Below are positions 41,592 to 46,996 of a stretch of DNA of 64,000 nt, one piece after another; within the stretch, counting starts at the first letter, position 1, and every line of letters starts with the position of its first letter. The stretch comes from Bacteroidota bacterium. GTDB taxonomy: Bacteria; Bacteroidota; Bacteroidia; 2-12-FULL-35-15. Made by a program: the position numbers and the translations under genes. The notes beneath the pieces are model-generated. The model was not told the DNA's origin. It saw nothing but the letters and a program-made list of their open reading frames with translations, and ran no database searches. The stretch covers positions 1 through 64,000 of the forward strand of contig JAOQAD010000041.1 in assembly GCA_025963775.1 (NCBI GenBank), read 5' to 3'.

Positions 41592-42295
41592 TTATTGGTA
41601 ATGTACTGAAAAATGGTTGGTGGCTTTTTGGTGAAAATTGCTTAAAATGCCACTGCCAATTTCAAGAGGAAGCAGATACCATTTTATAAAAATCGATTCT
41701 GTGTTTTAAAGTTAGGCCCAGGTGCAGATCAAAATGGTTTTTAAGATGGCTGAAAAAACCTTCGATTCCATTGGTTGTGGCTGGTATATCGGGATTACCT
41801 AAGCAATGGAACATATTTGGCAATGCTCTTTTGATCGTGTAATAGGAGCGCCGTACCAGCTTATGAGTGAGCCAATATCGCTGGGTTTGCTGATTGCAAG
41901 TCTTTTCCATTAAGTGATCCTTATATTTTAAGTACCAGGCTTCAAGGCTTGCGGTCCAATCAAGACGATCATTATTCGTCTTGATCTTTAGTAGCATGAG
42001 GACTAAATATTTCAACTCTTGCCTGCATCATGCTTTTAGAACATTGTCAGTCACAATAAACACATACGCTGGATATGAACCAGGCAGCGTTGGGCCAGCA
42101 CATCCGGCAACGATTTCTTTATAGCTTTTAAGATGCTTTTGTGTCCGTCTGAAGTAATGCGTTTAATTTACATGTTGCCTTTCATGATCTTAATACTTGG
42201 GGACTGTTCAAGAAAAGTATAAAAGTCCGTTGAAGCGTATCGATCGACAAGCCACTATCCCGACTTAAAGTTTTAAAAGTTTGTCGCTCCAACAT
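41592..42295 (-). pseudogene. Decayed transposase (IS256/IS1249-like)
   Basis: Read on the minus strand, fragments of one transposase appear in different frames. There is an N-terminal helix-turn-helix-like piece starting near 42295 (MLERQTFKTLSRDSGLSID), then SDGHKSILKAIKKSLPD ... QRCLVHIQR, then the longest intact piece (41662-42015) with TTNGIEGFFSHLKNHF. A shifted tail follows, ending near 41592. The DG...C..H and TNxIEG features fit IS256-type DDE transposases of the IS1249 kind. Several frameshifts and stops mean it is inactive. The 3.1 kb element next to it appears to have inserted just upstream of its remaining 5' end. Confidence 0.75.
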
Positions 42296-42303
42296 ATCCT
42301 CTT

Positions 42304-42311
42304 AAACTGTT
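42304..42311. repeat. Left direct repeat (candidate target-site duplication AAACTGTT)
   Basis: The 8-bp sequence AAACTGTT directly precedes the left terminal inverted repeat and occurs again, in the same orientation, directly after the right one at 45419. Because the repeat ends in TT and begins in AA, the true duplication may be shorter; ACTG is the 4-bp minimum if the inverted repeats start at TTCC. Confidence 0.8.
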
Positions 42312-42333
42312 CCTTAACTACGCAAGTCTAAGG
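42312..42333 (+). repeat. Left terminal inverted repeat of the element
   Basis: CCTTAACTACGCA followed by AGTCTAAGG. The first 13 bases are an exact reverse complement of the right end (45406-45418), and similarity continues imperfectly for about 8 bases (AGTCTAAG against GGTTAAG). Confidence 0.85.
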
Positions 42334-42348
42334 TTTGAGGCTAAAAAA

Positions 42349-42380
42349 CAAAAAGGACGCTGATTTCAGCGTCCTTTTTG
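42349..42380. terminator. Bidirectional intrinsic terminator inside the left end of the element
   Basis: A perfect 15-bp stem (CAAAAAGGACGCTGA and its complement) with a T-rich tail on both strands. It sits 16 nt inside the left inverted repeat. It would stop transcription entering the element from outside and also stop the minus-strand remnant next to it. Confidence 0.85.
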
Positions 42381-42383
42381 TTT

Positions 42384-42521
42384 TTATGCATTTGCTATTC
42401 CTTCTGCCGCAATATCCAGTATATTAAGATACCCAACTAAAATAGTATCTCCTGGATTGACTGCAGCTGGGTCAATGGTAAAAAGGAAACCTGAAACTGT
42501 GGTCGGCCAGCAAATGATAGA
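42384..42521 (-). pseudogene. C-terminal remnant of an unknown gene
   Basis: A minus-strand open stretch of 45 codons between stops, ending just before the terminator. It reads ...VSGFLFTIDPAAVNPGD... and ends in AAEGIANA. It has no usable ATG, looks like the end of a protein and directly precedes a terminator in the correct orientation. It is therefore probably the truncated 3' end of a gene carried in the element. I do not recognise the family. Confidence 0.4.
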
Positions 42522-42658
42522 TTACATGACTAAAAGTTATTAACAGCCTTTTTTTAAGGCCTTTTCAATACCTATAACATTTGAAAGCAATACAAATTAT
42601 CCAAGCAATCGTGAAAGCCATTAGGTCAAATAGAATTGTGTCTCCTATTGGATGAGTC

Positions 42659-44065
42659 GTGCCTATTCTGAAGAAAATTCAGGATGTGGGAATACCACGA
42701 CTTATCCGTAAATCTCTTGGAGACAGAGTTGCCCAAGCTAAATATCAGTTTCATGATGGCATTATATCTTGGAGTCTTGCTCAAATCTGCGGTTGCAGAA
42801 GAATTGAGAACATAACAAAAATGAAGAAGAAACTAGCAATCATACCTGGTCTCAAAGTCCCAAGTCATGATACTGTTGGGCGTATAATGCAGAAGGTTTC
42901 CACTAAACCGAAAATGGAAAGAAATATTACCAAAGCGAAAGAAGCAAAAATCAGCTTCACTCATTATGATGATAACATTCCAATGAATGAATTGCTTGTA
43001 AAATCAACCAAACTTATTGGTGCTCTTAAGGAAAATGTATCATACACAATGGATATTGATGCAACATTCATTAATACTTTAAAAAGAGGAGCCTTACGGA
43101 TTCTTGATAAGAATGGAAATCTCGACCATGGGAAAATAGGATTCAATCCAATGATTTGCTTAATAGGAAGTCTGCCTGTATTTATCAGCATGAGAAGTGG
43201 CAACGCTGCTGCTAATTTTAGAATTACTGAATGTCTGGAGTCCAGTTTGAAATTGTTGGAAGAATCTAAAATAAAAGTTGGGAGAATTATTAGTGATGCA
43301 GCAGGCTTTACCAAGACGGCCATGGCTCTCATTGATAATAAAGGGATTAAGTTCAATATGAGATTTATTTACAAGAAGAACTATATTGATTTTAATGAGA
43401 AGCTCCAAAGTTGTTCTACTTGGAGGGAAACAGAGATTGAAACAGCTAATTTTTTCTGGGATTGTGAAGTGGCTGATATCCCTCACAAAATGTCTAAAAT
43501 GTATTACGAAACTGAAGATGCAAAAGACTACAGGGTTGTTGCCCTGAGGATTCCAACTGACGAAATGCTACTAAGAACTCTTGGGAAGGAAGAAATAGAA
43601 CGAAGAGCAATGATAAAAGAGAAAATGAAAATTTTAGCAAAGAAAAAAATTTTAAAAGAAGAAGGAAAACCATACGAGGATAAACATTGGAAAGTAATTG
43701 GTGATTACCAGTACAAGTTCTATATAACTAATGATTATGATAAGACCTGTGAAGAAATTATCATCGAGTATAATAAAAGAGGCGGGGCGGAAAGAAAGTT
43801 TAGCTTCCTCAAGGACGAGTTGTCTTATGAGTTGCCGCCATTTGCAGAGATGAATCACAACACTGTTTTTCTAATTGTGGCGGCTCTGGCTAACAATATA
43901 TTTCGTGGAGTGCTTGAATTATTTAAAGATAAAGTACCTGGACTGAAGTTGACCAATAGACTCCCTGAGTTCCGAGAGTTATTCATTAACGTAGCTTGTA
44001 CTTATATCAGAGATACATTTGTGTTTTTCAGCCAGGATATTCTCTACGATGAATTAATGATTTAG
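42659..44065 (+). CDS. IS1380-like DDE transposase
   Basis: 468 residues. Features fitting IS1380-type enzymes are ERVAQAKYQ-like text near the N-terminus, first Asp in SYTMDIDATF, a LRSGN-like loop (ISMRSGNAAANFR), second Asp in GRIISDAAGF and the acidic YNKRGGAERKFSFLKDE region near residue 380. The track start is a GTG at 42659. A more conventional ATG (42652, MSRAYSE...) lies 7 nt upstream in another frame, so the present N-terminus may reflect a small frameshift. It lies inside the inverted repeats and should mobilise the element. The family assignment is from motif reading and is moderately sure. Confidence 0.82.
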   Translation: MPILKKIQDVGIPRLIRKSLGDRVAQAKYQFHDGIISWSLAQICGCRRIENITKMKKKLAIIPGLKVPSHDTVGRIMQKVSTKPKMERNITKAKEAKISFTHYDDNIPMNELLVKSTKLIGALKENVSYTMDIDATFINTLKRGALRILDKNGNLDHGKIGFNPMICLIGSLPVFISMRSGNAAANFRITECLESSLKLLEESKIKVGRIISDAAGFTKTAMALIDNKGIKFNMRFIYKKNYIDFNEKLQSCSTWRETEIETANFFWDCEVADIPHKMSKMYYETEDAKDYRVVALRIPTDEMLLRTLGKEEIERRAMIKEKMKILAKKKILKEEGKPYEDKHWKVIGDYQYKFYITNDYDKTCEEIIIEYNKRGGAERKFSFLKDELSYELPPFAEMNHNTVFLIVAALANNIFRGVLELFKDKVPGLKLTNRLPEFRELFINVACTYIRDTFVFFSQDILYDELMI

Positions 44066-44113
44066 TCTTGACATTTTTTTATTTATTCTATCTTAGCAAT
44101 AAATATTATAGTT

Positions 44114-44482
44114 ATGGCTTTAATTCGTTTTGAATTTACTCCAGAGGAAAATGTCAGAATCATTCCTATGCCAATTTGTAGTAGATATCAATTGATTTCT
44201 TTGACAATAGAAGCCACCAGTTTGATTGGCTTAGTTGAGGCTATCAGAAAGATGAGAATTTTTTTCCGTTTTGATTATGGAGCAACAAGGTATCATGCGG
44301 AATCTCAAGTTTACCATTTAAGTCAATATTTATGGGTGACAGACCAATTGATTAACGTTATAGATTTTGAAAATGAAATACTAAAGACGAAAGCGGGTTG
44401 CACTGCTGGTAGCGTAGCTATTGCAGACGCGGTTTTTCCTCCTGTGACGAGAATGATACTCGTATTGGAAGATTTTACTTAG
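44114..44482 (+). CDS. Uncharacterised passenger protein (122 residues)
   Basis: It starts at an ATG 48 nt after the transposase stop on the same strand. The product appears soluble, with beta-rich N- and C-terminal parts and no motif I recognise. AT-rich like the rest of the element. It may be co-transcribed with the transposase. It could be an accessory of transposition or a cargo gene; nothing in the sequence decides this. Confidence 0.6.
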   Translation: MALIRFEFTPEENVRIIPMPICSRYQLISLTIEATSLIGLVEAIRKMRIFFRFDYGATRYHAESQVYHLSQYLWVTDQLINVIDFENEILKTKAGCTAGSVAIADAVFPPVTRMILVLEDFT

Positions 44483-44486
44483 ATAA

Positions 44487-44768
44487 TTAAAGTATTAATT
44501 CATACTCATCTTCACCATTTTGAAATTCCCATTTACTGAGTAGCGAATAATTATACATTTCAGTCAATATTTGTTCAATTAAGAATAAAGGAATTTCTCT
44601 TACCTTGATTAATTTTTGAAGTTCATGAACAGAAATAGAAAATACTCCTTTCTTTTTTAAAGAAAAGAGTTTATTAAGAACCAAGTAATAGTAATCTCGG
44701 TAATCTGAATACTGGATTGAATAACATAATGTTAATCCAGTAGCCACAATAATAGGCACATCATTCAT
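44487..44768 (-). CDS. Uncharacterised small passenger protein (93 residues)
   Basis: Minus-strand ORF ending 5 nt after the convergent neighbour. The product is Tyr- and Leu-rich with a likely helical fold. Residues of about 30-75 (LFSLKKKGVFSISVHELQKLIKV... then an EMYNYSLL segment) could form a small winged-helix-like unit, but this is a guess. It has no signal peptide. It lies inside the mobile element between two plus-strand genes and diverges from the next gene (44827) with a 58-nt AT-rich gap likely holding both promoters. Confidence 0.5.
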   Translation of the reverse strand: MNDVPIIVATGLTLCYSIQYSDYRDYYYLVLNKLFSLKKKGVFSISVHELQKLIKVREIPLFLIEQILTEMYNYSLLSKWEFQNGEDEYELIL

Positions 44769-44826
44769 TTAGCCCATCTTTTTATGTTTTATATAAATAG
44801 TTAAAAAAAATAAAAATCAATCGAAT

Positions 44827-45345
44827 ATGACTACAAAATACTTTTTCAAATTTACAGGACCTGATGGCAATGTATACATTCAAATAAGGTCTAGTAGTTC
44901 TTATAACTATGATACTATCATTATTACACTAGACCGAATTGGGAAAGTAAATCAACGGAACGAAATTATCAGCGAGAGTGATTTTAGGGATTTTCAAGAC
45001 AATTGGAGTTTTATAGATGAAAATGAATTTTATGGAATTCAAAATAAGTACTTACTTCAACCTAGGTCAAGAGAGGACTATTATCAAGAATATTATAAAC
45101 TTTGGAGGGACTTTTATTTTGTGAAATTAGAAGGATTGCGAGCCGTCCGTAAGTTAAAGGTAATGGGCTGGAATTTCTATCAGAAATTGGAAGAACGGGA
45201 AAGAAATGATAATATTTACGAAAAACGCAAGAGATTGAAAGAGATAGAGGTTGGGGTGGAAAGTTTAGAAAACATCAGCATTTTCGATATATATGCAGAG
45301 GCTAAACACCAGGCAACAATGGAATACATATCAGAAAACATGTAA
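44827..45345 (+). CDS. Uncharacterised passenger protein (172 residues)
   Basis: It begins at an ATG in an AT-rich gap and ends just before the right-hand terminator. The product starts with a beta-rich part (KYFFKFTGPDGNVYIQI), followed by a Tyr/Arg-rich middle (SREDYYQEYYKLWRDFYF) and a charged helical C-terminus (KLEERERNDNIYEKRKRLKEI). No known domain is visible. It has its own terminator and position, so it is probably expressed as cargo of the element. Confidence 0.6.
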   Translation: MTTKYFFKFTGPDGNVYIQIRSSSSYNYDTIIITLDRIGKVNQRNEIISESDFRDFQDNWSFIDENEFYGIQNKYLLQPRSREDYYQEYYKLWRDFYFVKLEGLRAVRKLKVMGWNFYQKLEERERNDNIYEKRKRLKEIEVGVESLENISIFDIYAEAKHQATMEYISENM

Positions 45346-45351
45346 ATATTG

Positions 45352-45388
45352 AAAAAAGCCCATCAGTCTATTACTGATGGGCTTTTTT
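45352..45388. terminator. Bidirectional intrinsic terminator inside the right end of the element
   Basis: A 15-bp perfect stem (AAAAAAGCCCATCAG and its complement) with a 7-nt loop and T-runs on both sides. It lies 7 nt after the stop of the 172-residue gene and about 10 nt inside the right inverted repeat. Confidence 0.9.
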
Positions 45389-45398
45389 GACTTCAATT

Positions 45399-45418
45399 CT
45401 TAACCTGCGTAGTTAAGG
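45399..45418 (-). repeat. Right terminal inverted repeat of the element
   Basis: On the plus strand CTTAACCTGCGTAGTTAAGG; its last 13 bases are the exact reverse complement of the left end starting at 42312. Confidence 0.85.
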
Positions 45419-45426
45419 AAACTGTT
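45419..45426. repeat. Right direct repeat (AAACTGTT)
   Basis: Identical in sequence and orientation to 42304-42311, directly outside the right inverted repeat. The 58 nt from here to the mnmE stop hold no recognisable feature. Confidence 0.8.
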
Positions 45427-45484: not shown

Positions 45485-46882
45485 CTATTTTCCGATACAA
45501 AACCTGCTAAAGATATTCGCCAACAGGTCATCGCTGCTGATCTCTCCTGTGATCGTTCCCAGGTAATGCAAGGCCTGGCGGATATCCATCGCAAGGAAAT
45601 CACCGGAAACATTATGGTTCAATCCTTCAAGCACCTTTATAAGTGCAGAGTTGGTATGGCGCAAAGCTTCCACATGCCGGGCGTTCGTTACAATTGTTTC
45701 CGTTACGTTCACCGTACGGTTATCAAATAACTTCACCATGTGCTTTTTGAACTCATCAATACCTGTGCGCTCCTTTGCGGAGATGAACAGCATATCAGGG
45801 AAAGCAGAAAACTCTTTTTTTGTATAATCGAGGTCTTCTTTGTCGATCTTATTGGCCACTAAAACCAGTTGCGAATTGTGCAGGTGAGGAGTGATGTCGT
45901 CTACGATCAGCTTTAATTCCGAAGCCGTGATCTCGTGTGCATCAAACAAATAAATAGCGATGGAAGAGAGCTTGATCTGCTCGTAGGTTTTTTCCACGCC
46001 GATGCTTTCAATAATATCATTCGTCTCACGGATGCCCGCCGTATCAATAAAGCGGAACTGGACACCCTCAATGTTGATCTCATCTTCGATCACATCGCGT
46101 GTAGTGCCCGGGATATCGGATACAATAGCCCGTTCTTCTTCCAGCAAAGCATTCAGCAGTGTGGATTTTCCCGCATTGGGCTTTCCTACGATCGCGACCG
46201 GGATCCCGTTCTTGATCACGTTGCCCACCTCGAAGGAATCGATCAGGCGCTGCACAATGCGTTGTATCGAGCTCACTAAATTCTTCAGGTCGGTACGGTC
46301 AGCAAATTCCACATCCTCTTCTGCAAAGTCAAGCTCCAGTTCTATCAGCGATGCAAAATCGATCAGGTTTTGACGAAGTAACTTAATTTTATTGGAAAAT
46401 CCCCCGCGCATTTGCTGCATGGCTACCTGGTGCGATGTGGCTGAATTAGAGGAGATCAGGTCGGCAACGGCCTCTGCCTGCGAAAGATCAAGCTTCCCGT
46501 TCAAAAAGGCACGGAGCGTGAATTCGCCCTGGTTCGCCATCCGTGCGCCTTTCCGGATGAACAGCTGGATGATCTGCTGCTGGATGAATGGAGAGCCGTG
46601 ACAGGAGATCTCCACGGTATTTTCCGATGTGTACGAATTCGGCGCTTTGAAAATGCTCGCAAGCACTTCATCCAGCACTACGTCACCATCATGGATCACC
46701 CCGAAATGGATGGTATGTGATGCCGCTTCGGAAAGGCTTTTTTTCTTCAGGCTTTTGGTCCCGAACACCGCATCGCAGATCTCAATGGCTTTTGGCCCCG
46801 AAAGGCGGATCACGCCAATAGCGCCAATTCCCTGCGGAGTGGCAAGTGCAACAATCGTATCGGAATTTAAGGAATAGCTCAC
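45485..46882 (-). CDS. mnmE: tRNA modification GTPase MnmE
   Basis: MnmE works with MnmG to make the 5-carboxymethylaminomethyl group on U34 of certain tRNAs. Visible features are the N-terminal TIVALATPQGIGAIGVIRLSG, G1 GKPNAGKST, G2 region DIPGTTRD, G3 DTAG, G4 NKID and the conserved C-terminal FCIGK. The ORF track starts at 46990, but that adds a stretch without homology. I prefer the GTG at 46882 (VSYSLNSDTIVA), which gives 465 residues, the usual length. An upstream start cannot be fully excluded. The 3' end lies 58 nt from the mobile element. Confidence 0.96.
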   Translation of the reverse strand: MSYSLNSDTIVALATPQGIGAIGVIRLSGPKAIEICDAVFGTKSLKKKSLSEAASHTIHFGVIHDGDVVLDEVLASIFKAPNSYTSENTVEISCHGSPFIQQQIIQLFIRKGARMANQGEFTLRAFLNGKLDLSQAEAVADLISSNSATSHQVAMQQMRGGFSNKIKLLRQNLIDFASLIELELDFAEEDVEFADRTDLKNLVSSIQRIVQRLIDSFEVGNVIKNGIPVAIVGKPNAGKSTLLNALLEEERAIVSDIPGTTRDVIEDEINIEGVQFRFIDTAGIRETNDIIESIGVEKTYEQIKLSSIAIYLFDAHEITASELKLIVDDITPHLHNSQLVLVANKIDKEDLDYTKKEFSAFPDMLFISAKERTGIDEFKKHMVKLFDNRTVNVTETIVTNARHVEALRHTNSALIKVLEGLNHNVSGDFLAMDIRQALHYLGTITGEISSDDLLANIFSRFCIGK

Positions 46883-46996
46883 AGGTATTGTTTCAATGTT
46901 TATAAAAGTAAGGATTTTCCCCGAAATGATGTTTTTTACTTTTTGCAGGCAAATCCGGGAAGCCTGATCGTAAAATTGTATTGTGAACAAAAAAAC

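Follow-up and report, generated by a model that had tools for sequence, protein, structure and literature searches.

What kind of mobile element occupies the AT-rich stretch beside trmE in the 64,000-nt window (the whole stretch of DNA analysed here), and is it, as an earlier note proposed, an intact IS1380-like element carrying three genes with a terminator inside each end? The element covers 3107 bp (window positions 42312–45418) and is bracketed by two copies of AAACTGTT. Its parts are as follows:

42304–42311, no strand: left target-site duplication AAACTGTT, 8 bp
42312–42324, plus: left terminal inverted repeat CCTTAACTACGCA, followed by AGTCTAA, as in the ends of relatives
42344–42385, no strand: bidirectional terminator-like hairpin at the left inner end, 20/20 bp stem, −26.9 kcal/mol, 33–74 nt inside the end
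42611–42655, plus: conserved transposase N-terminus, GTG start to in-frame TGA (42653–42655), from homology to the relatives' N-termini
42659–44065, plus: IS1380-like DDE transposase, rest of the frame, 468 aa, with D132/D134, D213 and E378 conserved
44114–44482, plus: passenger ORF 1, 122 aa, no homologue found; coding status the least certain of the three
44487–44768, minus: passenger ORF 2, 93 aa, no homologue found in the profile libraries
44827–45345, plus: passenger ORF 3, 172 aa, no clear homologue, one weak partial match
45352–45388, no strand: bidirectional terminator-like hairpin at the right inner end, 16/16 bp stem, −22.9 kcal/mol, 31–67 nt inside the end
45406–45418, minus: right terminal inverted repeat, inverted repeat of the left end
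45419–45426, no strand: right target-site duplication AAACTGTT

Most of what the earlier note had described is borne out by these boundaries. The terminal repeats match at 13/13 positions (CCTTAACTACGCA and TGCGTAGTTAAGG) and start with CC at both ends, as IS1380-type repeats do; the direct repeats measure 8 bp; four open reading frames (the transposase and three uncharacterised genes) lie within the roughly 3.1 kb; the composition is AT-rich (34% GC in the element vs 43% in the window); and a strong hairpin is present near each end. This was the single pair of repeats and duplication detected at the locus. The element occurs once in its own genome, with no sign of current activity, and its right end lies ~60 bp from the 3′ end of trmE (45485–46990, minus strand). 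An empty site, which the earlier note had suggested seeking in related strains, was not visible in the same-genus genomes checked, where the flank is unconserved and the alignment breaks near the trmE end. The element is directly preceded on the left by an IS256-variant (Zn-binding type) transposase remnant (41662–42015, minus strand; NCBIfam NF048019, E = 3e-18, score far under the cut-off).

The word "intact" fared less well. The window transposase matches NF033539 over its full length (E = 1.5e-36), scoring 126 bits vs a curated cut-off of 180; its relatives score 155–207, all 12 clade members match, four of them above the cut-off, and the DDE residues D132/D134, D213 and E378 are invariant across the 12 sequences. 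Homology to the relatives extends upstream of the long frame as far back as the GTG at 42611, and the TGA at 42653–42655 interrupts it 14 codons past that start, within an N-terminal region (MKAxRSNxxxxPHGG) conserved in all near relatives. Given that the stop removes this region, the window copy is probably non-autonomous. That it is instead a fully active transposon, translated from a downstream GTG or bearing a TGA that is a sequencing error, seems unlikely to us: such activity would fit the perfect repeats with their duplication, the 468 codons that remain open and the intact DDE residues, and a sequencing error is conceivable given that the source draft assembly is partial (65% complete), but the stop deletes an N-terminus that close relatives conserve, and the long branch of the window transposase in the tree (0.73) is compatible with relaxed constraint. 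The description as an IS1380-like element with passenger genes and a terminator inside each end stands, and the claim of intactness does not.

The three passenger ORFs look like genes, by their openness in all three cases (each frame survives open in 0–1 of 2000 shuffles) and by codon usage in two, as this favours the called frame in the ORFs of 172 and 93 aa and gives no clear answer for the one of 122 aa. None of the three proteins matched Pfam, NCBIfam, PADLOC or PHROGs, and the 172- and 122-aa proteins had no match among viral contigs and plasmids. Among 395 genomes of the class, the 172-aa protein gave a single weak partial match (E = 2.5e-4), which we do not trust, and the 122-aa protein matched nothing in 36 same-genus genomes. 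AlphaFold2 runs on two of the passenger proteins as single sequences returned pLDDT values of 45 and 36.

Searches at class, phylum and genus level, together with named genomes (~900 genomes in total), placed the window copy among relatives whose transposases are 30–57% identical. The relatives' elements were picked by matched ends and duplication, blind to cargo and target. The search for similar ends with other cargo that the earlier note had recommended yielded 11 other elements with both ends defined (0.6–12.8 kb), their ends related and their cargo different:

G016: 8236 bp, duplication CCATCTGG
Fluviicola element: 12017 bp, duplication CTTAAAAAAG
G032: 5715 bp, duplication TCAA
G010: 11378 bp, duplication TGGAA
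G213 (L103 3874–16432): 12559 bp, duplication CAAACTG
G276 (G276:C67, L110 1033–2711): 1679 bp, duplication TTTTCGA, without transposase
G235 (G235:C64, L119 877–1518): 642 bp, duplication TTTA, the loop of a CCGTC/GACGG hairpin
G033: 12812 bp, 5-bp duplication
G100: 3809 bp, 5-bp duplication
own genome, contig C18 (G000:C18:252408–260940; L058 4409–12941): 8533 bp, ends CCTAAAATCCGC, duplication ATTAG
G177: 12428 bp, no clean duplication

Ends of the CCTTAAYTACGCA type, paired and bounded by duplications, recur in the clade. The clade most likely consists of divergent IS1380-like cargo transposons thinly spread through Bacteroidia. A further copy at E ≤ 1e-60 was absent from 396 genomes of the phylum, the transposase had no match among viral contigs, and ends without a partner were matched in further genomes and in one viral contig. 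Given that sister elements are at best 55–57% identical, no recent movement of the window copy is shown. The G276 element codes for a secreted-type protein with a type 9 secretion sorting tail and is certainly a transposase-less cassette, while G235 is counted as non-autonomous by size, 642 bp being too short for the clade's transposase. The C18 element is a second, different IS1380-like cargo element in the window's own genome, with an apparent response regulator and a sensor-type protein. Contig G100:C51 (L055 106–140) shows a back-to-back pair of element ends with 5 bp between them (CTTGCGTATTTTAGA-ttatt-TCTAAAATACGCAAG), as would result if the first copy had once had a second beside it.

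Gene content is swapped wholesale between copies. DUF2130 occurs in five elements, XRE regulators in five and Panacea antitoxins in three; a ~150-aa uncharacterised gene lies near the transposase in six, and a gene of ~60–85 aa near the transposase also recurs. The G010 element carries both halves of the PADLOC candidate system PDC-M30 (PDC-M30A/B, a candidate defence pair). The recurring transposase-adjacent genes (DUF2130, ~150 aa and ~60–85 aa), seen at L019, L035, L039, L040, L053 and L103, may be accessory genes for transposition or stabilisation. The DUF2130, Panacea, XRE, PDC-M30, ~150-aa and ~60–85-aa genes are all absent from the window copy, and its ORFs did not match the cargo of the other elements; by analogy with the relatives, its passengers are most likely accessory genes as well (stabilisation, defence or small regulatory).

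Terminator-like hairpins also recur at the inner ends, lying ~30–130 nt inside one end or both in many relatives. Counting as strong any hairpin scoring at least 12 within 150 nt of an end, we found them at 10 of 24 ends vs 1.7% of random 150-nt stretches from the same loci, mostly at 30–75 nt and with a sequence that differs case by case. That such hairpins recur although their sequences are unrelated speaks for a feature under selection, the natural reading being that the terminators would insulate the element.

A second kind of hairpin lies outside the elements, at their targets. We joined the flanks of each element and scored them for a dyad centred on the duplication, relative to positions in the same flanks. 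Six of the eight core elements (G016, Fluviicola, G032, G010, G276 and G235) have such a centred dyad, each within the top 0.2% of its own-flank positions (p < 0.002), and the 3′ half of a terminator lies outside 8 of 18 single ends, vs a background of 4.5% (p ~ 5e-7). The combined Fisher p for centred dyads is ~1.2e-13 for the eight core elements and 1.6e-12 for all 11, values to be read in the light of a core set grouped by end sequence with some members' targets already seen, of a pattern whose test partly reused the cases in which it had first been seen, of some elements being mutually related, and of hairpin and background thresholds chosen by the analyst. Of the elements found later and chosen by ends and duplication, G276 and G235 fit the pattern and G213 fails (p = 0.26). 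None of the three outgroup-type elements has a centred dyad, and G177 shows a matching dyad and no clean duplication. The tree shows hairpin-sited copies scattered across the whole nine-member clade that includes the window copy, and none was seen in its three-member sister group.

The duplication follows the hairpin in size as well as in place. Its length varies from 4 to 10 bp in the clade; in four of the six hairpin-sited elements it is the loop itself (TCAA, TGGAA, TTTTCGA, TTTA), and in the remaining two, with duplications of 8 and 10 bp, the loop lies at its centre. The G276 cassette sits exactly in a terminator loop. A hairpin at the window target was considered and ruled out (dyad score 2.0, p = 0.41). 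The two non-hairpin core elements share a target core AAACTGT (CAAACTG(T) in G213, AAACTGTT in the window).

The relatives appear to use structure-guided targeting. We tentatively suggest, at slightly less than even odds, that the clade's transposase recognises folded DNA and joins at or near the stem–loop boundary of an extruded hairpin of whatever sequence, in most cases an intrinsic terminator, with the loop becoming the duplication; joining there would explain why duplications of 4–10 bp match the loop or centre on it. The terminators that the elements carry would insulate them and could replace the one destroyed. It is improbable, in our estimate, that relatives lie in terminators simply because insertion is harmless there, with selection having removed the others and the transposase having no preference: terminators are intergenic, insertion past genes is tolerated and the window copy is itself intergenic and outside any hairpin, but selection would not place the junction exactly at the dyad centre, nor would it make the length of the duplication track the loop, as it does in the four loop-sized cases.

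We return to the preferred reading, to which we give a probability of about 0.8: the window holds one copy of a divergent IS1380-like cargo-transposon clade with hairpin-targeting relatives, and this copy is probably disabled. The transposase would cut at both ends and so move everything between them, while the end terminators would shield the transposase from transcription entering from outside and keep cargo transcripts within the element. In the relatives, the target chosen would be a hairpin, whereas the window copy would have inserted past the 3′ end of trmE, where there is none; its transposase would later have acquired the nonsense codon, leaving a copy that is probably immobile or moved in trans alone. 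Least probable of the alternatives is that an ordinary IS1380 insertion sequence took neighbouring DNA along by one-ended transposition (of the ISEcp1/ISPme1 type, with a degenerate far end), for although such behaviour is documented in the IS1380 family (PMC9330008) and the passenger genes are AT-rich and all on the same side of the transposase, the far end matches the near one at all 13 positions, unlike a look-alike, and relatives keep matched ends round entirely different cargo of 4–13 kb.

What the earlier note observed is real, and its reading was for the most part sound; the surprise comes from the relatives. The stagger of DDE transposases is normally fixed, and a clade whose duplication tracks the loop of the target hairpin would, if the proposal is true, offer a clear example of DDE insertion guided by structure. 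Small accessory genes, including those for toxin–antitoxin and defence systems, would then also have a safe-harbour route for spreading in Bacteroidota, one that combines insertion into terminators with terminators of the element's own.

Members of the IS1380 family are single-gene elements of ~1.6–2 kb with a usual duplication of 4–5 bp. The window element resembles them in a transposase that is homologous over its full length, in its DDE residues and in ends beginning CCT, and differs in its 3.1 kb with three passenger genes, its 8-bp duplication, a transposase below the cut-off and terminators inside both ends. ISArsp10, for example, is 1667 bp long with ends CCTTGATCCACCGAT and a 5-bp duplication, and the same paper gives its IS1380 member without passenger genes (PMC6305408). 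Where IS1380 members move other genes, they do so by one-ended capture (PMC9330008); the ISEcp1/ISPme1 modules likewise mobilise unrelated genes with an IS1380-type transposase, but they capture flanking DNA by a look-alike end and drive it from an outward promoter, whereas the window element has proper repeats and end terminators. Other families do include insertion sequences that carry passenger genes, for example ISArsp9 and ISArsp14 (ISNCY) and ISPst2 (ISL3; PMC6305408), which share with the window element an IS-type transposase and 2–12 passenger genes between true ends and differ in their transposase families. The open-access literature searched gave nothing relevant on IS1380 with terminator targets, and the combination of an IS1380-like transposase, exchangeable cargo, inner-end terminators and loop-sized duplications did not appear in the literature searched, mostly outside subscription journals. 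As for targeting, IS1630, going by PMC3317919 and the title of its reference 47, targets palindromes with a variable duplication length, as the clade does; it belongs to another family, with duplications of 16–26 bp, whereas the clade duplicates just the loop or dyad top (4–10 bp). The REP-targeting insertion sequences (ISPsy8, ISPa11, ISPpu9/10 and ISRm19/22) also insert into extragenic palindromes (PMC1525189), but these recognise a repeated sequence family, whereas the clade strikes the centre of hairpins with unrelated sequence.
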